A DNA stretch of 64,000 nucleotides, taken from Microbacterium murale. GTDB taxonomy: Bacteria; Actinomycetota; Actinomycetes; Actinomycetales; Microbacteriaceae. Both the position numbers and the translations under genes were made by a program. The DNA is taken from contig NZ_BMCM01000003.1 of the NCBI RefSeq assembly GCF_014635185.1, positions 62,001-126,000 of the forward strand, given 5' to 3'. Under the pieces are notes generated by a model, which saw only the letters and a program-made list of their open reading frames with translations, was not told the origin of the DNA and ran no database searches. Shown here in pieces: positions 1 to 44,277 of the stretch. Within the stretch, counting starts at the first letter, position 1. Every line of letters begins with the position of its first letter.

Positions 1-1
1 C

Positions 2-1000
2 ACCGCCATCCAAACCGAGGCAGAGAATCTACGGGGACTACTGGCATCCCGATCCGTGCGATACGACGATCTGAAATCGGCACTCGTTCCAACGCGGGAC
101 GGTCGCCAGGTGGTTTTCCTTTACGACTGGCTCGACGATCCCTCGCTCAACTACGCAGTCGCGTTTGCGAAGCTCTATCTGCCTCACCTCCGTAAGACGC
201 TGAGAACCAGCATGCTTCACGGCGACTTGCACGACTTCGGCGGTCCGATCCCGATACAAAGCTTGGACAATGAACTCGTGCGATCAGGGCCCGGGGCGCT
301 GAACTGGCGAACTCACTACGCCGTGTACTTCACGAATCTTCGAGACGATGACGTCACTACACTGCACGAGGCCTTAGTCGAAGTGCCGCGTTATCGCGGT
401 TACATCGACGTGTCCCGGGAAGGTCCTGTACGCGACTACCTCGACCGCACAGTCGCCCATGAATGGGTGATGACAGATGACAAGATTCTGCTCGATCACG
501 GCGGCGACGAACCATACGTTTCAGACCAGGATCCAGTTGGATTCGATCTGCAGGCTTTCGGCTATCAGGTGGTGAGCGTGATCGACTTCTATTTCGCTGC
601 CTTCTTGTCGTACAAAATCGAGGCGCAGGACGCCTTCCAGGCGTCCGAGGATCGTGATCTAACATTGGCGGCGGCCACGGGCGCGTGGCTTGACGTTGAC
701 GCCGCCTCGGTTGTTGTGCCACCGGAAAAGCTTGTGAAGTACCTCTTACGCGATGAGGGCAAGCTTCGGTTGATGACGAGCATCGGGTTGCAAGATGTCA
801 CGGCTGACGAACTCGCGAAGATCATCAAAGCGAAGATGTCGCAGAGCTACCTGTACGACTTCCGGGATGCCCCCGATGGAGCGTCAGTGTTCGCCGTCTC
901 TGCTGAGTTCGAGAAGGTCGACGGTGGAAGCGTTCGTCGGCTGTTGGCCCTCAAATATGACAAGGGAGCGGATGCGATCAGCCTCGTCAGCATGTACTGA
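2..1000 (+). CDS. Hypothetical protein of the mobile element, 5' end outside window
   Basis: I do not recognise this protein. The frame is open to the first bases of the window, reading TAIQTEAENLRGLL before the first internal start (GTG at 56), so the gene almost certainly begins to the left and about 332 residues are visible. The product looks soluble: no signal peptide, no membrane segment, mixed charged sequence, with a lysine-rich stretch (AKIIKAKMSQSYLYDF) near residue 280. It is the only plus-strand gene of the element and converges on the PIN-like gene, 80 bases away. Being next to other unknown cargo genes suggests an accessory (possibly defence) role, but no motif supports a function. 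If the GTG at 56 were used the protein would have 314 residues. Confidence 0.6.
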   Translation, partial: TAIQTEAENLRGLLASRSVRYDDLKSALVPTRDGRQVVFLYDWLDDPSLNYAVAFAKLYLPHLRKTLRTSMLHGDLHDFGGPIPIQSLDNELVRSGPGALNWRTHYAVYFTNLRDDDVTTLHEALVEVPRYRGYIDVSREGPVRDYLDRTVAHEWVMTDDKILLDHGGDEPYVSDQDPVGFDLQAFGYQVVSVIDFYFAAFLSYKIEAQDAFQASEDRDLTLAAATGAWLDVDAASVVVPPEKLVKYLLRDEGKLRLMTSIGLQDVTADELAKIIKAKMSQSYLYDFRDAPDGASVFAVSAEFEKVDGGSVRRLLALKYDKGADAISLVSMY

Positions 1001-1080
1001 ATCTGTGCTGATCTCGGACCGTCGTGTGGGGGTGAACTATGGCGTCGGGGTCCGTCGCACGGCTGGCCAACAACTTAGCT

Positions 1081-2325
1081 TCAGTCTGATGCTTGCCGTT
1101 CGTCGCTCTGAAACTCTGGCTTAGAAGTAGTCCTGGTTCCATCTTCGTCCAGCATTCGCACGACGTATCCCGCCGTCCGCTCAGCGTGGGTCAGCGGTCT
1201 TGGAGGCGTCAGGGTGAAGCTCACCCCAGGTGCGACTTGAATCCATCCCGTAGGGTCCTCAGCAATCGAGGAAGCGGTGTCGATCAGCGCTGGGAGCAGG
1301 GTGAGCAAGTCTTCCAGTCGGCTAATGACCGCCGATCCGTAGCGGTCGGGCGCCTTCGTCCTGTTCACCAAGGCTGCAGCATCCTTGTCTGCGACCACAA
1401 CGTCGCAATAGGGAATCGCGATGCTCAGCGCATCAATATCGCGGAGCATGTTCCAGCTCCAGCTTCTGTGTGAGTCACGAACGATCTCCAGCTTCAGCTC
1501 GGCGGCAATGCGCAATGTCGGGACACGTTCTACGAATGAGACGATTCGCTGGCGTGACTTGACTCCGTCTGCGACCGGACTGATTGCGGACAGCGAAAGG
1601 CGATACTCATGGAACAACGAGATCAAAAGATCGAGGTACTCATGGCTGAGTTCACGAGCCAACAGCCATACGCGGAGCTCGGTTCGAGATGGACGCGGAT
1701 GCTCGAGCAGTCGCTCTTCTAGTAGCTCCTCCCACGCGAGGCGGTTCCCCTCAGCTGTCTCGTGAGCGCGGGGAGGTCGATAACCGTACTCGGCAAGAAG
1801 CGGCAGATCTTCGTCCGCCGGCCCGGCCAACATCTCAGTCTCCGCGTACTGATTGATGTGACGTAACCACACCGGGTCAACTGATGACACAACCCGACCG
1901 GTCTGGTCGAGTGCGCGAAGGAACGCGTGCTTGCCTCGAAACGCCCAACTGACACCAATCCCCAGGGGATTTGTCTTCTTGGGGCGGAAGGTCGGTCGTC
2001 CGACTGTTTCGTGGAGTGCAACAAGGAGCTGCTGGCGGACGAGGTCGTTCTGCCGACGCAACGTCCGCATCTGGCTCACTGTGGCCATGATGGTGGCGAG
2101 ATCGCGTCGTTGGCGCGGATCAGCGATCCTCAGCGTCTCTTCGTAGTGAGTAGCAGAAAGCGGAAAGACAACGCCCGCCGCGCTCGCTTCGCGGATCGCC
2201 TCCAATACCTTGACGTCGGCTGCTACGCGCGGGCGCCCCGCGGCGGCCAGAGCCATACGAATCCACACCCACTGATCGAGATAGACAGTCGGGCGTTCTG
2301 TCCGCGCTTGGTTCGAGGTCGACAC
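1081..2325 (-). CDS. Large PIN-like domain protein, element cargo
   Basis: 414 residues. The N-terminus (VYLDQWVWIRM, D17) resembles the first strand and acidic residue of PIN ribonuclease domains. A second acidic site follows in SATHYEETLR (E62/E63). The C-terminal part has a DIDAL segment (about 296-300) and CDVVVADKD (D313), matching the third and fourth acidic positions of PIN folds. About 230 mostly helical residues separate the halves, far more than in the 130-residue VapC toxins, so this would be a PIN-like domain with a large insertion. Function is inferred: an RNase or effector. The start is GTG at 2325, placed exactly 6 nt after CAGAAT, a -10-like hexamer. A decayed antitoxin-like gene lies 104 bases upstream on the same strand. 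The PIN assignment rests on motifs only. Confidence 0.6.
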   Translation of the reverse strand: MSTSNQARTERPTVYLDQWVWIRMALAAAGRPRVAADVKVLEAIREASAAGVVFPLSATHYEETLRIADPRQRRDLATIMATVSQMRTLRRQNDLVRQQLLVALHETVGRPTFRPKKTNPLGIGVSWAFRGKHAFLRALDQTGRVVSSVDPVWLRHINQYAETEMLAGPADEDLPLLAEYGYRPPRAHETAEGNRLAWEELLEERLLEHPRPSRTELRVWLLARELSHEYLDLLISLFHEYRLSLSAISPVADGVKSRQRIVSFVERVPTLRIAAELKLEIVRDSHRSWSWNMLRDIDALSIAIPYCDVVVADKDAAALVNRTKAPDRYGSAVISRLEDLLTLLPALIDTASSIAEDPTGWIQVAPGVSFTLTPPRPLTHAERTAGYVVRMLDEDGTRTTSKPEFQSDERQASD

Positions 2326-2331
2326 GGTTAC

Positions 2332-2337
2332 ATTCTG
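2332..2337 (-). promoter_or_regulatory. -10-like hexamer CAGAAT before PIN-like gene
   Basis: CAGAAT on the minus strand is followed by 6 nt and then the GTG at 2325, the same geometry as the leaderless promoters elsewhere in the window. The first base departs from TAnnnT, so the support is modest. Confidence 0.35.
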
Positions 2338-2428
2338 CGGGGGACCACAGACACAAGACCGATCGTGCCACGATTCTGTCTAGCTTCGATGCGTTCGATG
2401 CTCGGGCACTAGCGAAATGAATCGGGGT

Positions 2429-2675
2429 CTAAGCCGAGACGGCGGCGATTGCGGACACGGGCTTAACAGATCCGGCGTTCGTGCGTTCATAGATGACTTG
2501 CGCAATGGTGAGACCCTCGATCGCGCGAAGTAGCGCCGCGTACAGCTCAGATGGACGCCGGCGCCTTCCGGGCGCCGACACGTACCAAATACGAGCGGCT
2601 CTGCAAGTCGTCCCTCAGCACGGAATCGACGGAGCACTTGGGGTAGCGCATCTCGGGCACCAAAGGCGTCGACAT
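2429..2675 (-). pseudogene. Decayed Phd/YefM-like antitoxin (two frameshifts)
   Basis: No single open frame covers this stretch, but two frames on the minus strand join into one recognisable small protein. The first reads VDAFGARDALPQVLRRF then RAEGRLAEPLVFGTCRRPEG, and the second reads ELYAALLRAIEGLTIAQV then IYERTNAGSV before a TAG at 2429-2431. This is the shape of actinobacterial Phd/YefM-type antitoxins (RFRAEG..AEPLVFG..RRPE....ELY..LL.AIED). Restoring one base near 2548-2552 joins the halves. A second lost base near 2667-2672 would connect the frame to the ATG at 2675, which has a good GGAGG just upstream. The result would be about 83 residues. It lies between the metallophosphoesterase and the PIN-like gene, same strand. 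The family call is from memory of the motif; sequencing error is the alternative. Confidence 0.5.
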
Positions 2676-2764
2676 GCCTCCGTCCTGGCTCGTTTTGGTG
2701 AATATTGAGTATCGGACTGGCCGGAGCTGATGATGGCTCGTGGAGCTATCGGATGCTGTCGCGA

Positions 2765-3580
2765 TCAGCGCCAGCCGCGAATGTCGGCTAGAGGCAGTAT
2801 CTCGAATGACAGGGTAGCCATGTCGAGCACTCCGGCATTCCCGGCGAACGTGTCCCGATCGAGGCTGACAACGCTTCGGCCGTCATCGCGCTCAAGATCA
2901 CCGAATACGTGCATGTGACCGTGCATGTGCAGGTGGGGGAGCGCCGCGTCGGCCACGCGCTGTACTCGCTCTCGCTGGGCAGCAGATATGGCCAACGCCT
3001 CGGGAGGAAACTCGTGCGGGTTGTTCATCAGCAGCCTCTGCACCTCCGGTACCGCGGCTGTCGGCGACTCGTGCGTGAGCATGAGGTCGGCCGGGCCTCC
3101 CGTAATTGCGGCGGCCTCCATCCGTTCCGTGATGAGTTCCTCTTCGAACCAGTCCTTACCCGCGGTGCGAAAAGCCTTGTCGACGCTGGACGCGCCGCCG
3201 AGCGATAGCACCTCGCGTCCGGCGATCTTGAAACGAAACGGCCGGGAGAGGAGCCACACGACTTCGCTGACTCTGATCGCCATCCCGGGGGCGTTCTCCT
3301 GGGCCGCGGTGATGTGATCCCACTCTTCGTGGTTACCGAGCGTGACGAGCACTCGCTCAATGCCTGCGCGCTTCGACCAGTAGTCAACAGGATGCGTGCC
3401 GAGATGGCCGTGGTCGAAGCCGTAATCTCCAAGCTGAAGGATTGTGCGCAGCGATGGGGCATGTCGACGCATCGCTGGCAGCAGCGTCTGGATCCATCCC
3501 GCGTTGCCGTGGAGGTCGCCGACGACCCACACGCGCTTATCAGGGAGGTCGAATGTGTCGGCCGTCTCATGGATCTGCAT
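2765..3580 (-). CDS. Calcineurin-like metallophosphoesterase
   Basis: 271 residues carrying the full metallophosphoesterase metal-binding series: GDLHGN (21-26), GDYG (51-54), GNHE (82-85), LTHESP (about 168) and HMHGHMH near residue 220. These bind two metal ions, so a phosphoester hydrolase acting on nucleotides, nucleic-acid ends or phosphoproteins is expected; the substrate cannot be told. No signal peptide, hence cytoplasmic. The sequence is close in style to phage- and element-borne phosphoesterases. It lies between the mobilization module and the decayed antitoxin, same strand. The start is ATG at 3580; no strong ribosome-binding site is seen, only GATGAGTAG just before it. Confidence 0.85.
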   Translation of the reverse strand: MQIHETADTFDLPDKRVWVVGDLHGNAGWIQTLLPAMRRHAPSLRTILQLGDYGFDHGHLGTHPVDYWSKRAGIERVLVTLGNHEEWDHITAAQENAPGMAIRVSEVVWLLSRPFRFKIAGREVLSLGGASSVDKAFRTAGKDWFEEELITERMEAAAITGGPADLMLTHESPTAAVPEVQRLLMNNPHEFPPEALAISAAQRERVQRVADAALPHLHMHGHMHVFGDLERDDGRSVVSLDRDTFAGNAGVLDMATLSFEILPLADIRGWR

Positions 3581-3865
3581 CTACTCATCATGCCCATGAG
3601 TACGGACATCCGGCGGGGTGTCAAAAACACAGCATGAAACTGGAATGTCGCCGAAATTCGTGGGCGCCGCGTGGCCATATTATGGTCGGCGGCCGTTCAT
3701 CGCTTGCGCGAAAATAGATGCTCTGTCCGCGTAGTGGCCACACGGGGACTAGAAAATGACCGGTTGAGGGGCACTTTCTGGACCTGGTCGCTCGAGTCCT
3801 CTCAGAGGGAGCGCACTGACCACGATATGGACACTCGAAGGCCCCTTTTCGCCCACCGCACAGCG
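3581..3865. other. Non-coding gap between cargo and mobilization module
   Basis: 285 bases separate the metallophosphoesterase start from the relaxase stop. I see no coherent reading frame, RNA gene or strong repeat. It probably holds the promoter of the metallophosphoesterase and the terminator of the relaxase operon, but neither is clear. Confidence 0.4.
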
Positions 3866-5254
3866 CTAGTCGCCGACCCCTCTTTGTTTTTCGGGCCCGG
3901 GAAGCGCCGCCTCATCGAAGAGTTCGGGGAACCGCAGCCGCAACGGGCGAGGCCTGGGGGAGACCGCCCCAATCTCATCGGCGACAGTCTTCGTCCGTGC
4001 TGATCGCTCTTGCGCTACGTCGTGCGGAGCTTCCTCGAGCGACGTGGTCTCGGGTTCTGGATCGGGATCGGCGATCCGCGGCTGAGCTGTTTGAAGCTCA
4101 GACAGTCCGACTGTGCCCGGGACGGCAGAAGCCTTGCTGGGCGCGTGAGCCTCGACATCCGTCATCGCCTCGTCGTTCGACAGGGCCGCAGCCACCAGGC
4201 GCTGAGCGGCGGCACTTGCCTCCTGTGCCGCCTCGTCCAGAGCGATCCGCATACGATCCTTGGGGGACAGCCGGCGTTCAGTTGTGGTCTTCTGTGGCAA
4301 GGACACTTTCACCGCGTTGTTGCGAACGAACGTCGCCTCAACTTCGTCCATCTCGAAGGCCGTGCCGAGCGTGGTGCATCTGCGGCGATCGCTGGCCGTC
4401 GGTTCAGCGAGGGTACCGTCGGGCTCTTCGCGCAGCATCCCGTAGGAGATGCCCCGCCCACCCTTACCTCGCTGCTCGATATTCACCCCGCGGGTTCTTC
4501 CAATCTCGACGAAGCTGTCCCAGTCAACAGCGGCAGAGTCCGCCATAGTCTGCTCGATGCTGGACTTGAGCATCGTCAAGCTGAATGGCTCCTTCCGCCG
4601 GGTGCCGCCGAAATCGTCGATCAGCTCGCATTCGGCCACCCAGTGGACGTAGCGGTGGTACTCCCGCAGCTCGCTGCTTTGGACGGAGTCGGCTCCGCGC
4701 AGTGCGCTTGGCTCGCCGCGTTCCCGGCGTTCGGTGGCGTCGCTGAAGACCTTCTTGAGGTCTTCACGCTGCTCGAAACCCTGCTCTTCGAGCATGCGTT
4801 CGTGAGCTTCCACCAGCCGTGCGTGGCTGATGATGCTGCTATTGAGGCTGCGGCCTGTGCGTGTCTCGACAGAATTCACGACTAGGTGGTTGTGGACGCA
4901 GCCAGCACGTCCGTCTCTCTGCGTGACGACGAGCACGTGTCGCCCGGGGAAGCGATCTTCGGCGAGGGCTCTGCCGAGCTTCTGAGCGGTCATCCAGGCA
5001 TCGGGATCGTCGGGATCCAGTTCGTCTTTCGCGAAGCTCTGGATGACGTGATACGCCTGTACGAAAGCGCCCTGTTTGTCCTTTCCCCATTTCTTCCGCA
5101 CATCACGCATCTGGTGCTGAGCCACGGACACGAGCAGTCCGCCGACGCCGGACGCCATGACGTAGCGCTCGTCCCGCTGGTCTGGCTTGTCTTCGAGCGC
5201 GTAGCTGATCAGCGCGTCCGCAGATCGGGTCGAGCTCGCCACCACCACAGGCAC
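3866..5254 (-). CDS. Relaxase / mobilization nuclease
   Basis: 462 residues from GTG 5254. A relaxase nicks oriT and pilots the strand during conjugative transfer. The N-terminal domain (about 1-200) matches the Relaxase/Mobilization nuclease family: ALISYALEDK with a candidate catalytic tyrosine (Y18), AYHVIQSF (H69), and the metal-binding histidine triad HVLVVTQRDG and CVHNHLVVNSV (H106, H121, H123). The C-terminal third is charged and low in complexity, as usual for these proteins. A longer frame reaches 5461 but overlaps the MobC-like gene; GTG 5254 starts right after that gene's TAA and lies about 10 nt after GAGGG, so the two are translationally coupled. No coupling protein or type IV secretion gene is in the window, so transfer would rely on a helper. 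Confidence 0.87.
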   Translation of the reverse strand: MPVVVASSTRSADALISYALEDKPDQRDERYVMASGVGGLLVSVAQHQMRDVRKKWGKDKQGAFVQAYHVIQSFAKDELDPDDPDAWMTAQKLGRALAEDRFPGRHVLVVTQRDGRAGCVHNHLVVNSVETRTGRSLNSSIISHARLVEAHERMLEEQGFEQREDLKKVFSDATERRERGEPSALRGADSVQSSELREYHRYVHWVAECELIDDFGGTRRKEPFSLTMLKSSIEQTMADSAAVDWDSFVEIGRTRGVNIEQRGKGGRGISYGMLREEPDGTLAEPTASDRRRCTTLGTAFEMDEVEATFVRNNAVKVSLPQKTTTERRLSPKDRMRIALDEAAQEASAAAQRLVAAALSNDEAMTDVEAHAPSKASAVPGTVGLSELQTAQPRIADPDPEPETTSLEEAPHDVAQERSARTKTVADEIGAVSPRPRPLRLRFPELFDEAALPGPEKQRGVGD

Positions 5255-5255
5255 G

Positions 5256-5774
5256 TTAGGCCGACCCTCGGGGTGGAAGTCCGTGCCCGGCGAGGACTGC
5301 GATCCGATGCTCGATATCGTCTGGCACAGCGCGCAGCTCGACGACTGCCTGCAGTGCCTCGGACAGCTCGCTCTGCGTGACCAGATCGCCACTGTTGATC
5401 CGCTTCGCGATCTGATTGAGGTTGCCGCCGATGCGCGCAATGTGGTTGCGCATAGGGGCAAGTTCGTAGCCGAGCCGGTCTGAGATCGCAGCCAGGCTCC
5501 AGGAGCTCGAAGAGGTGGCGTCCCGATCGATCAACAGCGCCCGGGCTTCCGCGTCCTCCACGGCGGGCTTGTCTGTTATGAGGAGCCGAAGAGCTTCGGA
5601 GAAGGTGACCTCTTCGAGGTCGCGTCCGGAGGATGTAGCCAACGCTCGCCGCACGTCTTCGACGGCTCGTTCCTCGTCGTCGCTGAACCGCAATGTGCGG
5701 CGCTTCGCGAAGTTGACGGCCTTCTTCCTCGACCGACGTGGCGGCGCTTCGCTTGCCTCGTTGGTCCTCGTCAT
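5256..5774 (-). CDS. MobC-like mobilization accessory protein
   Basis: 172 residues from ATG 5774, which is preceded by AAGGGGA at 8 nt; the frame continues upstream to 5984 but that part runs through the inverted repeat and lacks coding character. The N-terminus is basic (RRSRKKAVNFAKRR). The middle (FSDDEERAVEDVRR) looks like a ribbon-helix-helix type DNA-binding segment. The C-terminal part, PMRNHIARIGGNLNQIAKRI, carries the hallmark of MobC relaxosome proteins (a G-x-N-L-N-Q-I-A core). Such proteins bind oriT and assist the relaxase encoded immediately downstream, two bases away. The possible oriT lies just upstream of its start, the usual arrangement. Confidence 0.8.
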   Translation of the reverse strand: MTRTNEASEAPPRRSRKKAVNFAKRRTLRFSDDEERAVEDVRRALATSSGRDLEEVTFSEALRLLITDKPAVEDAEARALLIDRDATSSSSWSLAAISDRLGYELAPMRNHIARIGGNLNQIAKRINSGDLVTQSELSEALQAVVELRAVPDDIEHRIAVLAGHGLPPRGSA

Positions 5775-5795
5775 CAGTCCGTCCCCTTCGCTCGG

Positions 5796-5860
5796 TTCTT
5801 TGTGCAGTCTGGGCCTCTGCTTCCCCGCTCCGCGAGGGTGGTCCCAGACTACACAAAGAA
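5796..5860. other. Candidate oriT: 18-bp imperfect inverted repeat
   Basis: TTCTTTGTGCAGTCTGGG at 5796-5813 is matched by CCCAGACTACACAAAGAA at 5843-5860, an inverted repeat with one mismatch in 18 around a 29-nt spacer. It lies 22 nt upstream of the MobC-like start, in the non-coding gap (5775-6076) of the mobilization module, which is where oriT is normally found. I could not identify a nic site by comparison with known families. It could alternatively be an operator for the mob operon. Confidence 0.55.
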
Positions 5861-6076
5861 CGGCGAGCAGTTTATCCGTCGGACATATCGCGTCGCTCAT
5901 GTCTTCGGATACTTCTCGGTCAGGCCTCCGTCCCGACACCCGGTGAAGGCTCTCGCCTTCCCCCACCTGTGGTGGGTCCCCCATCGAAAACGAAAGAACC
6001 CTCCAGCGCCCTGAAGGCGGCGGGAGAGTTCTCTTCGTGCGCTGACGCGAGCTGATAGATCGCTGAGTCAGCCTTG

Positions 6077-6493
6077 TCAGCCGGCGCGCTGAAGCGCAGC
6101 CAACTGACCGGCCGAAGCCGGTGCGAACCGCTGGTCGTTCGCGGCCTCGGCGTGCGCAACAGCACCGTCGGGACCGCGCCCGCTGTCCGATGGCTCGTAC
6201 GTCGTTCGATACGACTCCGTGACCGCCAACAGGGCTGAGACTGCCTCGATCAAACGCGCGCTTCGTTTGACCTCATCCTTGTCTGTGGCGACCTCATATG
6301 CGCCGTTTTTGCCTTCGCGGCTGATCGGTCGCTCAGGCTTCAGGTCGAGCAACTCGTAGAGCTGCTCGACGGCGTCGCAACGGGCGAACGCGGCGACCTT
6401 CATCGCATCGTTCACGCTCTTGTCATGCGCCGCCTGCTCAGCGGCCAGCTCGGCGATCTGAGCAGCGCGGATCTGGCTACGTGTTCTTTTCAT
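6077..6493 (-). CDS. Hypothetical element protein, helical
   Basis: 138 residues, unrecognised. The N-terminal 50 residues (RAAQIAELAAEQAAHD and following) are alanine- and glutamate-rich and probably form a long helix or coiled coil. The middle contains QLYELLDLKPERPISREG and a polar stretch, the C-terminus is disordered. No membrane segment. ATG 6493 has a strong AAGGAGAT 6 nt upstream, so translation is well supported. It sits between the primase-helicase and the possible oriT on the same strand, so it may act in replication or in relaxosome assembly; that is only positional inference. Confidence 0.65.
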   Translation of the reverse strand: MKRTRSQIRAAQIAELAAEQAAHDKSVNDAMKVAAFARCDAVEQLYELLDLKPERPISREGKNGAYEVATDKDEVKRSARLIEAVSALLAVTESYRTTYEPSDSGRGPDGAVAHAEAANDQRFAPASAGQLAALQRAG

Positions 6494-6560
6494 AGGGATC
6501 TCCTTCCGTCAGGTTTTCAGGGCAGCCCCGTCGGGCGGGGCTCGGTTTGGAAGCCTGGAT

Positions 6561-8600
6561 CTATGCGGCGAGCCCGACGTAGTCCGACACGGCTTCGTCT
6601 TCATCGACCGCCGCTTGGGCGGCAAGAAGAGCGCGGTCGAGGTTGACCGAACGCGCGTAAATCGCTTGCGCGTAGGTGCGGCCAGGATGCGAACAACCTC
6701 CGCAGCCCGTGCCCATGCGTCGAACATGAGCGTGATCATCCAGGTGAGCGGGATCAGTCACGCCATCATCCACTTCTGCGCGACGCTTCCAGAGCGCCAG
6801 ATCCTCGGCGTACAGCTTCTTGACGACAGCGAGGCGGTCTTCCGGCGTCGTAGCGAGCGAGTTCGAGAACTGCAACGAGGTAGAGGTCGTGGCCGACATC
6901 GCCGCGCGGTCTCGGAAGATCACGTTGCGGTACTGCTTTCCCTTTTCGACATTGAGCCACTTGTACCTGTCGAGTCCGTACTGCTCGATGAGTTCTCCGT
7001 CGCCGGACACGTGAACCGAGGCCTTCTTCGGCTTGCCCTGACCGAGATCCAGCCATTCTCCAGCGTCGTCGAAGACGGCAGCGCGGATGCTCTTGTCGAA
7101 AGTGGCGCGATCGGTGATCAACCCGTTTGGTTTGTTCTGCGCGAACCATGCCTTGTACATCTCCCAGAGCAGCTCAAGAGGAAGTAGATCCCGCTCGAAG
7201 AGGTCCTTGTGCTGGTCCCAGAACATGCGCGGAACATCGTTCGTCGCCTTCGCCTCGCGCAGTACGCTGCGCGTGGACGCGGTCTCGGTGAAGCCGGTGA
7301 AGTTCATCTCCAGCGCCCGCCGCAGCACGTACTCGAGGACGTCGCTTCGGTGGATGTAGTCATCGCGGATGTACGTTCGCTCGATGCCGCCGAAGTGCGC
7401 GAGCATCGGGATGAAGAGCCAGCGTCGCCACATACTCTCCCCGTGGTCACCCAAACGGGGAAGGGCATTGAGGCAGTGCACTTGAGTACCGACAAAGATC
7501 ATGTTGTATGGGGCGACGTACTTGGGGTTGATTAGGAGCGGGTCGCGTGTCGCGAGCAGCTTCAGCGTCTCGCCGTTCTTGATGAAGTCGTTCGTTGCGT
7601 TCTCGTCGGAAACGACAAGGGACTTGCCTGCGATGGCCGGGAGGAAGGCGTCTTGCCCGAGCTTTGCAATCGTCGTGCTGAGTGTATTCGCCACACCCGC
7701 GACATTCATCAGCCACTGAATCACCGTGCCCTTGCCATTATTTCCGCGCGGACTGTAGAGACCCACGATCTTGTTGGTCCGAACATTCGGCTGAACGACG
7801 GCCGCGAACAACTGCCACATAATCAACTCAATTCCATCGTCACCCGCGGCGAACTCTCGAATGGCGCTGTCCACGTCCCAGTCAATTCCGTCGTCCTCGT
7901 TATGGATCGTCGGGTTCACCGCATCGGCGACGTAAGCGACCGGGATACGAGTCAAGAACACCCGATCAGACGAGAAAGCGTGCAAGGCACCCGTAGGGCG
8001 ATGAAAGTCCCCGTTGCCGACCGCAGTCCACTCGTTTCCCGAGACAGCTTGGATCGAGGGAGCAAAAGCCCTTAGAGAAGCCGTCACGTCTCTAAGGAAT
8101 GAGCTGCTTCCTCGTGCATATTCGAAGACGAGCGAAGCGATCGCGTCGTCACTGCGCATGTAGATTCCGCGGTCATGCAAATAGATGACTAGGGGATCGG
8201 TGTCGCTCCGTCCTCCGGAGCCATCACGGGCAGTGACCAATAGAGCGACATGGTGCAGGCGGCAGAGCACCTGTGCAACCTGAATGGCGGTGAGGCTTAT
8301 CAGAAGCGGAAGCTTTTCGCCCCTATCTCGGCCGGAGTTCGCGATGCGGAGCTCCGCATTGACAGCACGCAGCAGTTCGCTCTCCACCTGAAAGGGATGA
8401 GGTCGATTGTCGGGGTCGAGATCTGCGAGATATTGCGTGGTGATTCCGCGAATGATCGAGTTCTGCGTCCCAAGAATCGTTGGCATCGCGGGAGCCATGA
8501 GGTTAAGATTGGTGTCAGCGCCGCCAAACGCTTCGGGATCCGCTCCACCTTCGGTGGGGCGGATTTTTCGTTCCGCCATAAGTCCGTCGCTCTCCGTCAC
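6561..8600 (-). CDS. D5/P4-type primase-helicase of the element
   Basis: 679 residues from GTG 8600, which overlaps the stop of the HTH gene (GTGA) and is preceded by GAAGGGAA; an in-frame ATG at 8579 is the alternative. The C-terminal half is a superfamily 3 type AAA+ helicase: Walker A YSPRGNNGKGT (residues 282-292), Walker B-like SLVVSDENA (D332, E333), then LLATRDPL, NMIFVGTQ and WRRWLFIP typical of the phage/plasmid DNA primase (P4) C-terminal family. The N-terminal 250 residues lack the classical Toprim or AEP motifs that I could recognise. Such proteins replicate excised satellite and plasmid-like elements. The GGGTGAT repeat region about 600 bases away is the natural candidate for its origin. 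Confidence 0.85.
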   Translation of the reverse strand: MTESDGLMAERKIRPTEGGADPEAFGGADTNLNLMAPAMPTILGTQNSIIRGITTQYLADLDPDNRPHPFQVESELLRAVNAELRIANSGRDRGEKLPLLISLTAIQVAQVLCRLHHVALLVTARDGSGGRSDTDPLVIYLHDRGIYMRSDDAIASLVFEYARGSSSFLRDVTASLRAFAPSIQAVSGNEWTAVGNGDFHRPTGALHAFSSDRVFLTRIPVAYVADAVNPTIHNEDDGIDWDVDSAIREFAAGDDGIELIMWQLFAAVVQPNVRTNKIVGLYSPRGNNGKGTVIQWLMNVAGVANTLSTTIAKLGQDAFLPAIAGKSLVVSDENATNDFIKNGETLKLLATRDPLLINPKYVAPYNMIFVGTQVHCLNALPRLGDHGESMWRRWLFIPMLAHFGGIERTYIRDDYIHRSDVLEYVLRRALEMNFTGFTETASTRSVLREAKATNDVPRMFWDQHKDLFERDLLPLELLWEMYKAWFAQNKPNGLITDRATFDKSIRAAVFDDAGEWLDLGQGKPKKASVHVSGDGELIEQYGLDRYKWLNVEKGKQYRNVIFRDRAAMSATTSTSLQFSNSLATTPEDRLAVVKKLYAEDLALWKRRAEVDDGVTDPAHLDDHAHVRRMGTGCGGCSHPGRTYAQAIYARSVNLDRALLAAQAAVDEDEAVSDYVGLAA

Positions 8601-8965
8601 GCAACCATTCCCTTCAGGCGTGCGGCGATACGAGCACATTGCTCGTCGCTCAGCGGGCCGGAGGACGCGAGCACGCGGTTCACGGCTACTTCGAGCTCAG
8701 CTATCAGCGCAGACGGAGCGTCGGCCTGACTCTTGCGAGTTGCGAGCGGCTCTAGCGCCGAGCGTCGAACGTAGTACTTGGAACCAATGCGGGTGTGGGG
8801 GAGCGATCCGTCCTTCACGCGTCGCCGGATCGTGTGAACAGAACCGAAGCGGCGCGCACCCTGGGCGTTGCGGATCTCGGAAGCCTCGTAGATATCGAGA
8901 AGCTCATCCGTCGTCGTGGTCGTGGTCGTGCGGTCAGGTGGGGTATCAGTGAGAATACTGGGCAT
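8597..8965 (-). CDS. Excisionase-like helix-turn-helix protein
   Basis: 122 residues from ATG 8965, with GAGGT 7 nt upstream; an upstream TTG at 8995 would run through the dyad and is less likely. The core RRFGSVHTIRRRVKDG, then SLPHTRIGSKYYVRRSALE, is the winged-helix 'HTH_17/excisionase' signature: a helix reading DNA, then a short beta wing and a helix. A run of seven threonines precedes it. Proteins of this type act as recombination directionality factors or repressors. It is the first gene of a coupled pair with the primase-helicase (GTGA overlap) and begins next to the dyad at 8976-8993, so it may control its own promoter. Whether it directs excision by the serine recombinase cannot be told from sequence. 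Confidence 0.75.
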   Translation of the reverse strand: MPSILTDTPPDRTTTTTTTDELLDIYEASEIRNAQGARRFGSVHTIRRRVKDGSLPHTRIGSKYYVRRSALEPLATRKSQADAPSALIAELEVAVNRVLASSGPLSDEQCARIAARLKGMVA

Positions 8966-8975
8966 AGTCAACCTC

Positions 8976-8993
8976 GAAAGTGTCGTTACTTTC
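8976..8993. promoter_or_regulatory. Dyad GAAAGT-N6-ACTTTC, likely operator
   Basis: A perfect 6+6 inverted repeat around a 6-nt spacer lies 10 bases before the start codon of the HTH protein. Its position fits an operator for the HTH-primase operon, perhaps bound by the HTH protein itself. A role in termination is unlikely, as the stem is short and spaced. Confidence 0.45.
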
Positions 8994-9232
8994 AAGGGAC
9001 CGAATCGCCGAACCTATTACCGGTTGCACTGGCGGCCGTGCACCGACGGTGCGCGTCCTCTTGTCGAACTGCGTCGTGATGTTTCCAGTGCACTTCGCGT
9101 TGTTCTTGCCCTTATTTCATTTGGGCCGTAGTGAAGTTAGCACAGTCTGAGTACGCAGATCAACTATCTCGCTCAGCCAGACATTGGAAAGGCGGGAGAT
9201 GTGGCCTGGGCATTGCTGACCATCGGCTTTAG

Positions 9233-9488
9233 GGTGATGAAGAGCCGCGAGCGGGTGATGATCGGGATCACCCGGTCCATCCGCGCGATTGCACGGAACA
9301 AGGTGCATGGGTGACGGGTGATGGCGGCCGCGAACACTCTAAAGCGATCGCGTTGCTTCGCCCCAACGACTTTCTTTAACTTTTACCGTCACCTTTATCA
9401 CCCGCTCTTAGATTCGGCGGAATTTCGGGACAAAATCGGGTGACGGTGCGGGTGATGATCGGGTGATGGACGCAGGAGCCGTCACCCG
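9233..9488. repeat. GGGTGAT repeat cluster, candidate replication origin
   Basis: About ten copies of GGTGA or its complement TCACC lie within roughly 250 bp, on both strands, near 9233, 9253, 9268, 9309, 9316, 9389, 9398, 9438, 9451, 9461 and 9481. The longest match is a perfect 16-bp direct repeat, GCGGGTGATGATCGGG, at 9251-9266 and 9448-9463. An A/T-rich patch (CTTTCTTTAACTTTTACC, about 9370-9387) lies between them. Clustered short repeats with an A/T-rich segment beside a replicative helicase gene resemble an iteron origin. The cluster also abuts the recombinase stop, so accessory recombination sites are the alternative. The rest of the gap 8994-9502 shows no gene. Confidence 0.5.
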
Positions 9489-9502
9489 CACCGGGTCGGT
9501 CA

Positions 9503-11011
9503 CTACTTCGAGGACCAGGACACAGCCACGCGCCGCATTGCCCAAGCGCTTTCCGTGAAGACTTTGCCTGTGGCTGGATCGATCCCACGCCTCCCCTGAT
9601 CCGCGCGATCGATCGTGAGCCGCAAGCCGAGATCGCTGATGATCCGTCGCTTCGCGAGCACAGGCAATGCCCGCCATCGATCGGGAATCGACTCAGCCAT
9701 TCGCAGATCGCTCAGCGGCGACGACGTTCGCATCGCCTCGAGCCTTGCCCCCGTGCGCTCGAGTCGCGATGTCAGATCTTCGAGCTTTTCGCGTGCTTTG
9801 GCGCGGGGGAGGAGGCCGTCCGCGAGCAAGTCGGTGACGTCCTCTCGGCGACGGTGGAGATCGGCGATCTCTTCCTCAAGGGGTGTGGCGTCATCGCTGT
9901 CCCGAAGCGCGTGCACAATGCGATCATCGTGCAGACGAGCGAGTACGACTCCTTCCACCAAGGACTCAACGTGCGTCGCACGGATCGACACGCAGTATTT
10001 CTCGAAGCACACGTACGTTGCGTGCCGGATCAGCTTTCCATCAGGCCCTGAGACGGGAAGTCTGTGTCTTCCTGATTCTGCGGCGCCTGTCCGTGTCGTC
10101 TTGTAGTTCGCGTGGGTGTATATCGGTCCGCCGCATACGCCACACGTGAGCATGCCTGAGAGCAAGTGCTTCGGTGAGACTGCCCAGGACCGCTTGCGCT
10201 TCCGGTTGAGTTTGAGCTGCCGGAACTCGTGCCACATCTGCTCGTCGATGATCGGTTGCCACTGGGGCAACCTTCCCTCGGGGAGATCGACCTCTTCGCC
10301 CTTGTGTACGACGACGCCGGCGTATCGAGGATTCTCGAGCAGGCGTTGAACACGTGAGCCACTCCATAGCTCGTTCTTTATCGGCCGCCACTCCGAGATC
10401 TGGAAGCGACGGGCCAAGCGATTCCATGTTGCCGCAATCGCCCGATAGCTTGTGCCTCGGAGCACACGACGATAACCGTCGCGAATGAGCTTCGCTTCAA
10501 GCTCGATCGGTTCGATCCGCCCCGTAACGCGCTGGTACCCGTATGGCCTATTAGAGAACTGCCAGTTGCCGTACTCAGCTGCTTGACGATTGGCGGCTCT
10601 CTGGCGGAGTGCCTTCTGTTCGGTCTCGTACTGAGACCACGCGGCGACCGTCCGTGCGACGGCTCTTCCAGCAGGAGTAGCGAGTTCGAGGGTGCCAGCG
10701 GTCACCATGTGCACCGGTATCTCGAGAGCGATCACTCTCTCGAGATCACTCGTCAGGCGCAGGAGCCGATCTTGATGCCAAGCAATGATTACACGAGGCC
10801 GCGAAGCAAGCATCGCTTCGAACTCGGGGCGTGACACCCCGCTCGTGGCCGAGACGTCATTATCGACGTACACGTGCTCGACTGTCAGCCCTATCCGGGC
10901 AGCTAGATCACGACAGTCACGCTCCTGGCGTTCGACACCGAGTTCGTCACCGCTGCGATCCTGCGACAGCCGGGCGTAAATCACGCAGGTTCCTTGAGCA
11001 AGTTTTGCCAT
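9503..11011 (-). CDS. Large serine recombinase (integrase of the element)
   Basis: 502 residues from ATG 11011; the open frame runs on upstream through dprA and xerC sequence and is not coding there. The N-terminal resolvase domain begins VIYARLSQDRSGDELG with the catalytic serine at S16, followed by the usual arginine motif (WHQDRLLRL). The recombinase domain follows (RDGYRRVLRGTSYRAIAATW), then a zinc ribbon with cysteines in LTCGVCGGPI and YVCFEKYC, and a coiled coil near residues 390-440 (EEEIADLHRRREDVTDLL, EKLEDLTSRLERTGARLEAM). This is the full set of a phiC31/TP901-type integrase. It lies at the extreme right end of the element, 21 bases from the resumed dprA frame, as expected for the enzyme that inserted the element. 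The start has only a weak upstream CAGGT. Confidence 0.93.
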   Translation of the reverse strand: MAKLAQGTCVIYARLSQDRSGDELGVERQERDCRDLAARIGLTVEHVYVDNDVSATSGVSRPEFEAMLASRPRVIIAWHQDRLLRLTSDLERVIALEIPVHMVTAGTLELATPAGRAVARTVAAWSQYETEQKALRQRAANRQAAEYGNWQFSNRPYGYQRVTGRIEPIELEAKLIRDGYRRVLRGTSYRAIAATWNRLARRFQISEWRPIKNELWSGSRVQRLLENPRYAGVVVHKGEEVDLPEGRLPQWQPIIDEQMWHEFRQLKLNRKRKRSWAVSPKHLLSGMLTCGVCGGPIYTHANYKTTRTGAAESGRHRLPVSGPDGKLIRHATYVCFEKYCVSIRATHVESLVEGVVLARLHDDRIVHALRDSDDATPLEEEIADLHRRREDVTDLLADGLLPRAKAREKLEDLTSRLERTGARLEAMRTSSPLSDLRMAESIPDRWRALPVLAKRRIISDLGLRLTIDRADQGRRGIDPATGKVFTESAWAMRRVAVSWSSK

Positions 11012-11047
11012 ACCTGAAGGATATACAAGTAGACACCTGCAGGGCAC
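11012..11047. other. Element-chromosome junction (att site, inferred)
   Basis: The recombinase gene starts at 11011 on the minus strand, and the dprA frame resumes on the plus strand at 11033 after a TAG at 11030-11032. The reading there is T-P-A-G-H-A, where DprA proteins have N-T-A-G-H-A, so the crossover should lie in or next to ACACCTGCAGGGCAC (11033-11047). The exact core needs the other junction, which is outside the window. Confidence 0.55.
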
Positions 11048-11413
11048 GCGGCCGCGCTCGGACGGCCGCTGGGCTCGGTGCCGGGGCCCGTGACATCCGC
11101 CGCGTCTGCCGGCTGCCATCGGCTGCTGCGTGAATACGACGCGCGTTGCGTCACCAGCACTGCAGAGGTGCGAGAGCTGCTCGGCCTCGACGCGAACCTC
11201 AACGGCGGTCGCGTTGGGGGAGACGGTGCGCGCATCGACCCCGACCAGACCCGTCTCCTCGATGCGATGAGCACCCGGACCGCACGCTCGTCCGTTGAAC
11301 TCGCCCGGATCGCCGGGCTGTCGGAAGAACGCGTCCGTGCACTGCTTGGCCTGCTGTCGTTGGATGAGCGCGTGCGGAGCGATGACGCGGGGTGGCGCCT
11401 CGCCGTCGCATGA
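11033..11413 (+). pseudogene. dprA: dprA 3' fragment, cut off by the element
   Basis: DprA loads RecA on incoming single-stranded DNA during natural transformation. Here only the C-terminal part remains: AGHAAALGRPLGSVPGPV, then TSAASAGCHRLLREYDA, is the end of the Rossmann fold, and DPDQTRLLDAMSTRTARS with ELARIAGLSEERVRALL is the winged-helix domain at the C-terminus. The frame is closed upstream by TAG at 11030, directly at the serine-recombinase end of the element, so about two thirds of the gene (including the Rossmann N-terminus) is missing here. An internal GTG at 11078 could start a 111-residue peptide, but no ribosome-binding site supports it. The neighbour xerC downstream is the normal actinobacterial partner of dprA. 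Confidence 0.85.
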
Positions 11414-35352: not shown

Positions 35353-35628
35353 TCAGTTGGTCGCGCGGATCTCGAATCCTCCTGGCGACGCCGCCGGCAC
35401 GTCGGTCACCGTCACTTCGTCGACCTGCGCACCCGCCGGCCCCTGCTTCAGCGCGTCGAGGACGGCCTGCACGTCGGCGTCCGCCCCGTGCAACTCGGCT
35501 TCCACCGTCCCGTCGCGGCGGTTTCGCACCCAGCCCGTGACGGCGTGAGCCGCCGCCGCGTCCTGTGCGAACCACCGGTACCCGACTCCCTGTACACGCC
35601 CACGCGTGCTCGTTCGCACCGACCTCAT
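35353..35628 (-). CDS. acyP: Acylphosphatase
   Basis: 91 residues, normal length. Hydrolyses acyl phosphates. The signature GRVQGVGYRWFAQDAA holds the phosphate-binding arginine; GWVRNRRDGTVEAE holds the catalytic asparagine. ATG 35628 has CATCCT 6 nt upstream, weakly resembling the leaderless promoters of the region. Convergent with ligA (65 bases) and preceded by the SfnB-like gene, which ends 31 bases from its start on the other side of its promoter. Confidence 0.92.
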   Translation of the reverse strand: MRSVRTSTRGRVQGVGYRWFAQDAAAAHAVTGWVRNRRDGTVEAELHGADADVQAVLDALKQGPAGAQVDEVTVTDVPAASPGGFEIRATN

Positions 35629-35659
35629 GGTTCAAGGATGCCAGGCCGGACGGCTGAGG

Positions 35660-36904
35660 TCAGGTGTACCAGGAAGGCTGAGGAATCTGGTTCAGAAGCA
35701 CGTACTCGCCGACCTCGCGCTTCTTGTACGCGATCGGATCGTGCAGGCTGTGCGTGCGCAGGTTGCGCCAGAAGATGTCGAGTCCGACGGAGTTCGCGGT
35801 CGCCCGGGCGCCGGTGAGCTCGAACACCTTCGTCGCGACTTCGAGCCCGTCATCGACGATGCGCAGTTTGCCGGCGGCGATCCTGACCGCGATCTCGCCG
35901 CGGCGGCGCTCCGTCAGTTCTTCACGTTGCGCGTGCAGCACGGCGCTGATCTCGGCACCGGCCGCATCGAGCAGCGCCTCGTCCGCCCAGAGCTTGGACT
36001 GAAGGACGCCGTACCCCTCGAGCAGGTACCACTCCTCGCTCGCGTGCTCCTTGTCGTCGCCTCCGTACGGCCATGCACGCGTCGACGTCCTGGAGTAGGC
36101 GGACGCCGTCTCCAGCGCGCCTTCCGCGATGCCGAGGTAGAAGTTCGCGAACACGAGCTGGATGGTCGGTACGTTCAGCGTGTTGTACGTGAGCGGCTGG
36201 AAGACGCGATCGACGAAACCCGCCGCAGACGCCCAATCGACGCGCACATCGCGGATCTCGACCGATCCCGACTCGGTGAGGCGCTGGCCGAGATTGTCCC
36301 AGTCGCCGGCGAAGACGATCCCCGGCTGATCCGTCGGCACGATCGCGAACACGTGGGTCTCGGTGCCTTCCAGAACGCCTTCCAGGACCGTGAGGTCCGA
36401 GATCTGACCACCGGTCGAGAACGACTTGCGGCCGGAGAACACGAGCTCATCGCCGTCCTCGCGCACAGTCAAGTCGGAGTCGCGCGGATTGACCGCGCCG
36501 CCGAACAGCAGGTTCCCGCTCGTGTAGAGCTCCTCGACGGCGGCGATCTGGTCATCGGTGGCGACGAGTCGTGCGGCCCACGCCCAGAGGTAGTGGTAGC
36601 CGAGGACCTGACCGATGGAGCCGTCCCCGCGTGCCACGATGCGGATGACCTTGTACGCCGTATCCCAGGTCTGCTCCGCGCCGCCGTGTGCGCGGGGACC
36701 GAGTAGGGTCACCAGTCCTGCCTCCTTGAGCAGCCGCACCTCCGCATGCGGGGTGGCGTTCGCGCGATCACGTTCGACCGCATCCACGGCGAGGATGTCG
36801 GAGACCTCCTGCGCACGGACGAGCCATTCCGCGCCGTCCCGGGGCGATCGTGCGCCCCGCCAGCGGTCGGTGAGGCCTGTGGTGACTGATTCTGCAATGG
36901 TCAT
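35660..36904 (-). CDS. SfnB/DszC-like flavin-dependent acyl-CoA dehydrogenase-fold oxidoreductase
   Basis: 414 residues from ATG 36904 with AGGGA upstream; the open frame to 37282 is not coding. The acyl-CoA dehydrogenase fold is evident (helical N-terminus, beta domain with RKSFSTGGQISDLTV, C-terminal helices), but the active-site base region and the sequence FYLGIAEGALETASAY, RAWPYGG and SLHDPIAYKKREVGEYVL place it with FMNH2-dependent monooxygenases and sulfur-acquisition oxidoreductases (SfnB, DszC). Such enzymes attack organosulfur compounds. No flavin reductase or sulfonate transporter is adjacent, so the substrate is open. Confidence 0.85.
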   Translation of the reverse strand: MTIAESVTTGLTDRWRGARSPRDGAEWLVRAQEVSDILAVDAVERDRANATPHAEVRLLKEAGLVTLLGPRAHGGAEQTWDTAYKVIRIVARGDGSIGQVLGYHYLWAWAARLVATDDQIAAVEELYTSGNLLFGGAVNPRDSDLTVREDGDELVFSGRKSFSTGGQISDLTVLEGVLEGTETHVFAIVPTDQPGIVFAGDWDNLGQRLTESGSVEIRDVRVDWASAAGFVDRVFQPLTYNTLNVPTIQLVFANFYLGIAEGALETASAYSRTSTRAWPYGGDDKEHASEEWYLLEGYGVLQSKLWADEALLDAAGAEISAVLHAQREELTERRRGEIAVRIAAGKLRIVDDGLEVATKVFELTGARATANSVGLDIFWRNLRTHSLHDPIAYKKREVGEYVLLNQIPQPSWYT

Positions 36905-37160: not shown

Positions 37161-38981
37161 TCAGTCCTTGTGGCGGGGCTTGCGGAACGGCTTGTCGTCG
37201 CGGGTGGGACGATCGCCGTACGAGGGCCGCTCGCGGCGCTCGTAGCCGCCGTCGCTGCCGCCGCGTCGTCCTGGGGCTCCACGGTCGGCCTTGATCTCGA
37301 TCAGACGACCGGAGATTCGGGTGTCCTTGAGCTTGTCGAGCACCGCGGGGCTCAGGTTCGCGGGCAGCTCCACGATCGAGAAGTCCGGGTTGATCTTGAT
37401 GCCGCCGAAGTCATCGCGGCCGAGACCGCCTTCATTGGCCAGCGCGCCGACGATCTGGCGCGGCTCGACGCGGTGACGGCGGCCGACCTCGATGCGATAC
37501 GGCGCGAAGTCGCTGCGACTGCGACGTTCTGTGCGTGGTCCCGTTCCCCGCTCAGGACGGTCGCCGGAGTCACGACGCGGACGGTTGTCGCGTTCCACAG
37601 CCGCGGTGAGCGGGTCGTTGGCCGGATCCAGCAGCAGCGGCGTCTTGCCCTGCGCGACGACGGCGAGTGCAGCGGCGACGTCACCCTCGGGCACATCGTG
37701 GTTGCGCACGTAGTGGGCGACGATGTCGCGGAACGCCTCGATGCGGGTGGTCTCTGCGAGGGCAGCGGTGATGCCGTCGTCGAAGCGAGCCAAACGCGTG
37801 GTGTTGACGTCATCCGTGCTCGGAAGCGTCATCTGCGTCGGCGCCTGGCGGGTCGCCTTCTCGATGCTCTTGAGCAGGTAGCGCTCTCGCGGCGTGATGA
37901 AGCTGATCGCGTCGCCGGTGCGACCGGCACGGCCGGTGCGCCCGATGCGGTGCGTGTACGACTCGGTGTCAGTGGGGATGTCGTAGTTGATGACGTGGCT
38001 GATGCGCTCCACGTCCAGACCACGCGCGGCGACGTCGGTGGCGACGAGGATGTCGAGCTTGCCGTCCTTGAGCTGGTTGACGCTGCGCTCCCGCTGCACC
38101 TGCGCCACGTCGCCGTTGATGGCAGCAGCGGAGTATCCGCGGGCACGCAGCTTCTCGGCCAGCGTCTCGGTCTCGTTCTTCGTGCGGACGAAGACGATCA
38201 TGCCGTCGAAGTTCTCGACCTCGAGGATGCGCGTGAGGGCGTCGACCTTCTGCTGGTACGAGACGACGAGGTAGCGCTGTGTGATGTTCTTGCTGGATGC
38301 TGTCTTCGACTTGACCGTGATCTCTTCGGCGTCGCGCAGGTACTTCTGGGCGAGGCGACGGATCTGCGGCGGCATGGTCGCCGAGAACAGGGCGACCTGC
38401 TTCTCGGCAGGCGTCTGCGCGAGGATCTGCTCGACATCTTCGGCGAAGCCCATCTTCAGCATCTCGTCGGCCTCGTCGAGCACCAGGTACTTCAGCGCGG
38501 AGAGGTCGAGGGTGCCCTTGGCGAGGTGATCCATGATGCGACCGGGTGTGCCGACGATGACATGCACACCGCGGCGCAGTGCGGAGAGCTGCACGCCGTA
38601 GCCCTGGCCGCCGTAGACGGGCAGCACGTGCACGCCCTTCATCTTCGCGGCGTACGACTCGAAGGCCTCACAGACCTGGAGTGCGAGCTCGCGGGTCGGC
38701 GCCAGCACGAGGGCCTGCGGCGTCTTCTGCGCGACGTCGAGGCGTTCGAGCACCGGCAGCGCGAATGCGGCGGTCTTGCCCGTTCCGGTCTGGGCCATGC
38801 CCACGACGTCGCGGCCGCCGAGAAGCGTCGGAATGGTGGCCGCCTGGATGGGCGATGGGGTCTCATATCCCAGGCCGCGGATGGCGGCGAGGACGGGTCC
38901 GGTGATGCCGAGTTCCTCGAATCCGGGGGTCGTGGGGGATTCGTCGGTGGGCTCGTTCAAATCTGCATCTTCAGGGGTCAC
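37161..38981 (-). CDS. DEAD-box RNA helicase (CsdA/DeaD type)
   Basis: 606 residues from GTG 38981, fixed by TACCTT 6 nt upstream; the frame continues to 39014. ATP-dependent RNA unwinding in ribosome assembly and mRNA turnover. Q motif FEELGITGPVL, motif I AQTGTGKTAAFALP, Ia PTRELALQV, II DEADEMLKMGF, III FSATMPP, VI HRIGRTGRAGR. After the helicase core come a DbpA-type RNA-binding domain (YRIEVGRRHRVEPRQIVGAL, KINPDFSIVELPANL) and a basic, arginine- and glycine-rich tail (YERRERPSYGDRPTRDD). This layout is that of cold-shock DeaD proteins. Confidence 0.95.
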   Translation of the reverse strand: MTPEDADLNEPTDESPTTPGFEELGITGPVLAAIRGLGYETPSPIQAATIPTLLGGRDVVGMAQTGTGKTAAFALPVLERLDVAQKTPQALVLAPTRELALQVCEAFESYAAKMKGVHVLPVYGGQGYGVQLSALRRGVHVIVGTPGRIMDHLAKGTLDLSALKYLVLDEADEMLKMGFAEDVEQILAQTPAEKQVALFSATMPPQIRRLAQKYLRDAEEITVKSKTASSKNITQRYLVVSYQQKVDALTRILEVENFDGMIVFVRTKNETETLAEKLRARGYSAAAINGDVAQVQRERSVNQLKDGKLDILVATDVAARGLDVERISHVINYDIPTDTESYTHRIGRTGRAGRTGDAISFITPRERYLLKSIEKATRQAPTQMTLPSTDDVNTTRLARFDDGITAALAETTRIEAFRDIVAHYVRNHDVPEGDVAAALAVVAQGKTPLLLDPANDPLTAAVERDNRPRRDSGDRPERGTGPRTERRSRSDFAPYRIEVGRRHRVEPRQIVGALANEGGLGRDDFGGIKINPDFSIVELPANLSPAVLDKLKDTRISGRLIEIKADRGAPGRRGGSDGGYERRERPSYGDRPTRDDKPFRKPRHKD

Positions 38982-38987
38982 TACCCA

Positions 38988-38993
38988 AAGGTA
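38988..38993 (-). promoter_or_regulatory. Leaderless-type promoter of DEAD-box helicase (TACCTT)
   Basis: TACCTT plus 6 nt before GTG 38981. It decides the start of the helicase against the longer open frame. Confidence 0.5.
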
Positions 38994-39030
38994 GCGCGTC
39001 GAGCCGCCGCGCACCTGTGAAGACGCGGCG

Positions 39031-40731: not shown

Positions 40732-40737
40732 GTCGAC

Positions 40738-40743
40738 AGCCTA
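40738..40743 (-). promoter_or_regulatory. Leaderless-type promoter of fadD (TAGGCT)
   Basis: TAGGCT, 6 nt, then ATG 40731. It faces away from the gatC promoter at 40792. Confidence 0.5.
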
Positions 40744-40791
40744 TTCCGAGAGTGCGACGCGAGACGGAGCGGGGGCGTTGATGCGGCGAAC

Positions 40792-40797
40792 TAGACT
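40792..40797 (+). promoter_or_regulatory. Leaderless-type promoter of gatC (TAGACT)
   Basis: TAGACT plus 6 nt gives GTG 40804 as the start, rather than the GTG three bases earlier, and yields the normal GatC N-terminus MSEITPELV. Confidence 0.55.
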
Positions 40798-40803
40798 GAT
40801 GTG

Positions 40804-44149: not shown

Positions 44150-44181
44150 GTCAGACCGCGACACTTCGGGGGTCGCGAGTA

Positions 44182-44220
44182 CGAATGTCGGACCGATTCG
44201 TCTGATCGGTCCGACATTCG
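44182..44220 (+). terminator. Terminator after gatCAB
   Basis: A perfect 16-bp stem, CGAATGTCGGACCGAT with ATCGGTCCGACATTCG, loop of 7, starting 33 bases after gatB. No T run follows, which is common in high-GC actinobacteria. Confidence 0.85.
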
Positions 44221-44277
44221 GCGTTTCGACCCCCAGACTGTCGAGCCGTTGTCGGTGGCTTCAGCGAGAATGGAACC

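Follow-up and report, generated by a model that had tools for sequence, protein, structure and literature searches.

A putative mobilizable element with a large serine integrase interrupts dprA in Microbacterium murale, and relatives of its integrase often adjoin other transformation genes

We describe here a dprA gene of Microbacterium murale (genome G000) that is cut in two by a 49.2-kb element, the right end of which lies in the window, the whole 64,000-nucleotide stretch of DNA analysed (G000:C3:62001-126000). The 3' part of the gene occupies window positions 11039-11413 on the plus strand and comprises the C-terminal ~124 codons without a start codon, and the 5' part lies 38 kb to the left of the window at C3:23045-23850. 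A TAG at 11030-11032 closes the frame on the element side; DprA residues TPAGHAAALGRPLG... are encoded on the plus strand starting at 11033, the sequence downstream of the TAG being TPAGHAAALGRPLGSVPGPVTS... and the DprA frame remaining open until 11413. The initial annotation had recognised this TAG and the C-terminal third of DprA beyond it, had placed an element in the gene, and had suggested looking leftwards for the 5' fragment; all of this holds, and measured from one core to the other (C3:23846-73046) the element spans 49,196 bp, as against the 11 kb inside the window. The pentamer GGGCA is present at both element ends, at C3:23846-23850 and at C3:73042-73046 (the right core copy, attR, at window positions 11042-11046), as would be expected of a short shared core left by recombination between attP and attB, and a short core is usual for serine integrases. 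A direct repeat matching 11033-11047 had been anticipated, and a repeat is there, limited to these 5 bp. The insertion point is the glycine codon of the conserved DprA motif NTAGHAA.

The interrupted 5' ORF is 341 residues long, with its final residues encoded by element DNA, and it lacks the end of the Rossmann-fold domain and the C-terminal domain. Joining the two flanks yields an open, colinear 390-aa DprA that, when aligned with an intact relative, is 67% identical across 392 columns, and an empty site with one GGGCA is predicted to restore the dprA frame; uninterrupted dprA genes are present in relatives, as had been presumed. A genome-wide PF02481 profile search (E 0.001) finds a single locus (C3:23339-23854, model positions 5-177 of 212) and no second dprA, and the gene is thus interrupted without another copy. 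The initial annotation had named two findings that would speak against an insertion, a missing 5' fragment at the left end or an intact dprA elsewhere beside an old remnant, and neither was encountered, since the 5' fragment is in place and no other PF02481 match was found in the genome. We also considered an old, decayed copy of dprA, and the open joined frame speaks against it.

The integrase gene, at 9503-11011, is on the minus strand and begins at the end nearest the dprA 3' part. A large serine recombinase had been correctly placed here, but in the wrong orientation, and 11011 is the start of the gene and 9503 its end. The 502-aa product has the domain order of a large serine integrase, with a Resolvase domain (PF00239, residues 10-150, E 1e-18) followed by a Recombinase domain (PF07508, residues 172-265, E 1e-11). 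The zinc-ribbon has no Pfam match at 1e-3, and C290, C293, and C335 are invariant in a 17-row alignment that includes this integrase. Similar proteins are found in 77 of 398 family genomes at 1e-20, the M. murale genome included. Among the closest in the phage collection are the integrases of Streptomyces phages R4 and phiScoe3 (35-37% identity over 91-92%), which resemble the element's integrase but are phage-borne, unlike that of the dprA element.

From the right end inwards, the integrase is followed by genes for an excisionase-like helix-turn-helix (HTH) protein (8597-8965), a P4-family primase-helicase (6561-8600), a small conserved backbone protein without a Pfam match (6077-6493), a MobC-like mobilisation protein (5256-5774), and a relaxase of the MobA/VirD2 type (3866-5254), all on the minus strand. 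The HTH protein matches PF12728 (HTH_17, E 2.7e-6) and, below cut-off, TIGR01764, and it is a candidate recombination directionality factor. Relaxase, MobC, and primase-helicase genes had all been noted in the first reading of the sequence, and profile matches agree (PF03432, E 1.1e-17; PF05713, E 1.8e-6; TIGR01613, E 1.1e-37 and over cut-off, together with PF19263). The element therefore has site-specific integration with both ends defined and a relaxase of its own, and because no type IV secretion family is found among the 27 element proteins scanned (25 with Pfam and two with PADLOC only, the set being exclusive of the 990-aa ORF at C3:38670-41642 and smaller ORFs), it reads as an integrative mobilizable element (IME). 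A prophage was considered and rejected: no phage structural family occurs among the same 27 proteins, and the relaxase and MobC favour an IME. Integrase, relaxase, and MobC without a conjugation-channel gene are the composition of IMEs, as in the element proteins scanned; unlike IMEs generally, this one has a serine integrase with a site in dprA, and its mobilisation is read from the genes it carries.

The cargo to the left of the mobility genes includes a calcineurin-like phosphoesterase (2765-3580, minus strand; PF00149, E 1.1e-9), type I restriction-modification, nSTAND3, PDC-S11, a subtilase, a sigma factor, and a uracil-DNA-glycosylase-like protein. Two further cargo ORFs within the window are a minus-strand ORF at 1081-2256 with no Pfam or PADLOC match, and a plus-strand ORF at 1-1000 that continues left of the window, has 376 residues in all, and has no Pfam match. 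The restriction-modification genes encode HsdS and two consecutive HsdM pieces (PADLOC, with one piece also found by Pfam), and the ORF at C3:38670-41642 is R-like by eye. The nSTAND3 protein, with its Mrr-like domain, corresponds to PADLOC PDC-S73. Together, C3:27240-29516, 35504-36655, and 38670-44374 hold candidate defence cargo, namely nSTAND3 with Mrr-like domain (PDC-S73), PDC-S11, and type I restriction-modification with hsdM in two ORFs.

A search for other elements with this type of integrase in dprA, which the initial annotation had proposed, was successful: among the matches listed, the two closest other integrases (~59% identity) are in genomes G129 and G303, of two other genera, and both are at the same dprA codon with the same mobility genes. 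In both, the dprA 5' half ends at NTAG and the 3' half starts at AGHAA, with the halves 60.1 kb (G129) and 31.7 kb (G303) apart. The integrase, HTH protein, small protein, MobC, and relaxase are in the same order in all three of these elements with 51-71% identity; to the M. murale proteins the identities in G303 and G129 are 64-70% for the HTH protein, 51-63% for the small protein, and 69-71% for both MobC and the relaxase. Most of the cargo differs, although the primase-helicase is also present in G303 (48%), with no match in the G129 element, and the phosphoesterase has a 41% relative in G129. G129 also has a second DprA-like gene (L069, C1:2460657-2461622, 52% over residues 12-325), possibly a backup or carried by another element, and the interruption there may consequently not abolish function.

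There is a second site within dprA, 26-30 codons upstream of the first, at which the gene is split at RN|RLIAA in seven genomes with both halves found. Six of these (G288, G025, G245, G273, G328, and G345) have an integrase beside the dprA 3' half, and in G656 the integrase (36%) is beside the 5' half; the integrases at this site are 32-37% identical to that of the M. murale element. In one further genome, G398, the 5' half of dprA (L070, G398:C5:2161226-2161941) breaks off close to the second site; a search at E 10 recovered no 3' half, and the fragment may be what a lost or rearranged element left behind. Split dprA genes are present in at least nine of the 398 family genomes (G000, G129, G303, G025, G245, G273, G288, G328, and G345), a count drawn from genomes whose best E was weak and which had at least two matches, the splits then being confirmed, with G357 set aside as ambiguous and with G656 and G398 (from other draws) and the drafts G219 and G300 falling outside the count.

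Among the other transformation genes of the M. murale host, comEC (838 aa), tadA, tadC, a flp-like gene, and tadE look intact, and a TGA flagged in tadA is the end of its frame. However, comM, which is directly upstream of dprA, is also split, with its 3' part beginning at about C3:22560 and its 5' part at C5:12552-13586, adjoining a tyrosine recombinase gene and metal-resistance-type genes. The comM element is seen as C3:1-22555 and C5:1-12550, contains the tyrosine recombinase, operon ORFs, and arsenic/cation-type metal-resistance genes, and would be about 35 kb or more if both contig ends belong together. One of its proteins is a tyrosine recombinase by Pfam, and two further operon proteins have no convincing Pfam or NCBIfam match (a third, C3:19219-20562, lay outside the scan); plasmid relatives of its proteins, among those shown, are annotated 'hypothetical protein', and its layout may be Tn554-like. 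With dprA and comM both cut, two unrelated elements have hit two neighbouring genes. In other species both genes act on DNA after uptake, DprA handling the incoming DNA. The initial annotation had expected the insertion to impair or regulate DNA uptake itself, a step that precedes the action of DprA in model species.

We propose, with a probability of about 0.72 for the reading as a whole, that an IME has entered dprA at a cost to the host's transformation and to its own advantage. The element's integrase would have made the insertion, and while the element is integrated DprA function would be lost and incoming single strands would not be handed to RecA, such that host transformation would probably be lost through the split. 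The element would then be shielded from chromosomal curing, in which recombination with the DNA of kin that lack the element deletes it, excision by the integrase and its excisionase-like neighbour would restore dprA, and spread would proceed by mobilisation through another element's conjugation channel.

There are other readings of the locus to consider. The breakage of comM in the same genome would suit an old, fixed remnant, with the element immobile and dprA a pseudogene, because the pathway may already be dead; nonetheless the genes for integrase, relaxase, MobC, and primase retain open frames with conserved counterparts in the sister elements, and the joined dprA can be read through all 390 codons without interruption, and we find such a remnant very improbable. 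We also think it unlikely that dprA is under regulated integrity, with conditional excision restoring the gene and the insertion acting as a switch, not a block. The exact junctions, the open integrase frame, the conserved excisionase-like neighbour, and the open dprA given by the joined flanks are all as such a switch would have them, and comK in Listeria is a known case, but the assembly contains no excised copy and only the one split locus.

The relatives of the integrase place the proposed protection from curing in a wider setting. Among the best 29 other integrase loci in 398 family genomes, 23 adjoin a transformation gene (tadC 9, tadA 5, flp 4, dprA 3, comEC 1, and ssb 1, the last not being specific to transformation) and six have no assigned target. 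A further 27 new loci were recovered from 396 genomes of the order, and 21 of the 27 adjoin a transformation gene (tadA 10, comM 5, tadC 5, and a CpaB-like gene 1, with six unassigned), although this is not an independent draw, since the query, alignment A2, was built from pilus- and dprA-targeting integrases. The order count omits L091 (the M. murale locus itself) and L092 and L093 (repeats of L013 and L018). Targets were assigned from the gene next to the integrase start, no more than 300 bp away, and the opposite side was inspected for 19 loci; some of the loci left without a target (12 of 56 in both samples pooled) may therefore have one elsewhere. The weaker assignments are L030, L034, and L145, which are 287 bp from a tadA-like fragment, and L088, which is 263 bp from flp; L107 and L118 were assigned by eye, L107 being tadC. 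Pfam detects T2SSE, Competence, SSB, and ChlI in those target fragments that were searched, and the query proteins gave T2SSF and TadE, with no match for L115, L118, or the pilin, and matches below cut-off for L110, L111, and the CpaB-like gene. The clade includes records at flp in Agromyces salentinus, Microbacterium helvum, and two Microbacterium sp., and at tadC in two Cryobacterium sp. We also note a record named as the proteobacterium Stenotrophomonas maltophilia strain P13 (L084, contig_46) that has a Microbacteriaceae-like tad locus with a tadC-targeting integrase, and which is perhaps a contaminating contig.

A control set of 30 serine recombinase loci was drawn by domain score alone, and seven of the 30 adjoin transformation genes, five of these seven being already counted among the best 29. 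Seven control loci (L122, L124, L141, L143, L144, L145, and L146) coincide with loci of the integrase search, and L139 is without an integrase ORF. The preference is thus a property of the integrase clade, and serine recombinases in general show it less strongly. A chance estimate of the pathway bias, which assumed that sites are random and that pathway genes make up 13 kb of 3.4 Mb, was given no weight.

In the genomes tested, the assigned targets are not only adjacent to the integrases but are interrupted. A composite tadA-tadC-flp-comEC protein was used to search 14 genomes, and in 13 of the 13 tested for their assigned target that gene is split, its complementary halves lying ~5-16 kb from each other on a single contig with the integrase at one end. 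These are tadC in six (G106, G119, G109, G236, G120, and G223, the tail in G223 coming from a separate look at the locus), tadA in four (G173, G073, G667, and G446), flp in two (G077 and G239), and comEC in one (G122). In G109 (L014) both tadA and tadC are split. The genome outside the 13, G366 (L025), has its integrase beside ssb, and flp is split there too.

In a tree of 79 integrases, a quick tree with SH-aLRT support only and with long branches among the rows without an assigned target, the three integrases at the first dprA site form one clade (SH-aLRT 100) that is sister to four flp-targeting integrases. The two included from the second site (G288 and G025) form one clade that is placed elsewhere, and the dprA target requires two changes on the tree. 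The nine labels (eight targets plus unassigned, with L107 labelled 'other' in spite of its later reading as tadC) require 18 changes compared to a shuffled mean of 46.7, which indicates that targets are inherited, yet move between genes of one pathway. This bears on the possibility that the site is simply tolerated, in that dprA, comM, and the tad genes are dispensable, insertion is harmless, and blocking transformation gains nothing. Integrases tend to use conserved genes, dprA has matches in 388 of the 398 family genomes, and hosts in which it is split survive without it. Nonetheless, mere tolerance sits poorly with the movement of targets within a single pathway at most of the best other loci, with the small number of changes on the tree, and with two unrelated types of recombinase cutting the neighbouring comM and dprA, and we regard it as rather unlikely. 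Judged from these genomic patterns, the pathway-wide distribution appears to fit escape from deletion better. We further suggest, at even odds, that a clade of serine integrases in Actinobacteria evolved from gene to gene within one pathway, Tad/Flp-pilus transformation, with at least six genes (tadA, tadC, flp, comEC, comM, and dprA) as attachment sites, and that it is the pathway and not a sequence motif that is selected. Among earlier compilations, Mageeney 2020 reportedly lists yifB.

Competence genes were already known as serine-integrase targets, as the initial annotation had said. The main text of Durrant et al. 2022 (PMC10083194) describes large serine recombinase (LSR) targets as strongly enriched for DNA competence genes, with magnesium chelatase homologs, here read as ComM, the target of 12.4% of predicted site-specific LSRs; those elements are LSR-borne, as is the dprA element, and 'DprA' has no occurrence in that main text. 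Passages of PMC4774983 and PMC12637031 list insertions of mobile elements in comK, comYC, comFA, comM, comEC, radC, and ssbB, with escape from deletion by transformation as the proposed benefit, portions of PMC11472951 read comM insertion in the same way, and a phage in comGC is reported in part of PMC6008420. The text examined of Croucher et al. 2016 (PMC4774983) has no occurrence of 'actinobacteri', and neither there nor in the corresponding text of Kwun et al. 2025 is there a dprA or a Tad/Flp-pilus target. We found no paper giving dprA or Tad genes as attachment sites, in a search that stopped short of the supplement of Durrant 2022, which possibly lists both. Because that study already reports the enrichment for competence genes, we rate what is new here, the dprA and Tad target genes and the spread of one clade over a single pathway, as falling within a known kind.

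The dprA gene and the actinobacterial Tad/Flp-pilus genes join the competence genes that mobile elements are known to break. At least two lineages of integrase have converged on dprA, and a single pathway is covered by one wider clade. According to Angelov 2015 (PMC4322843), transformation of Micrococcus luteus requires Tad/Flp genes and comEC. The curing hypothesis becomes testable in a phylum with transformation genes known mainly from that organism, and a set of integrases with mapped sites is a further yield. If elements gain by blocking transformation, then their hosts must transform. Thus, if the clade is indeed selected by pathway, the Microbacteriaceae and the order to which they belong would be, or lately have been, widely transformable, and occupancy by integrases could be used as a genetic screen that reveals unrecognised competence genes.
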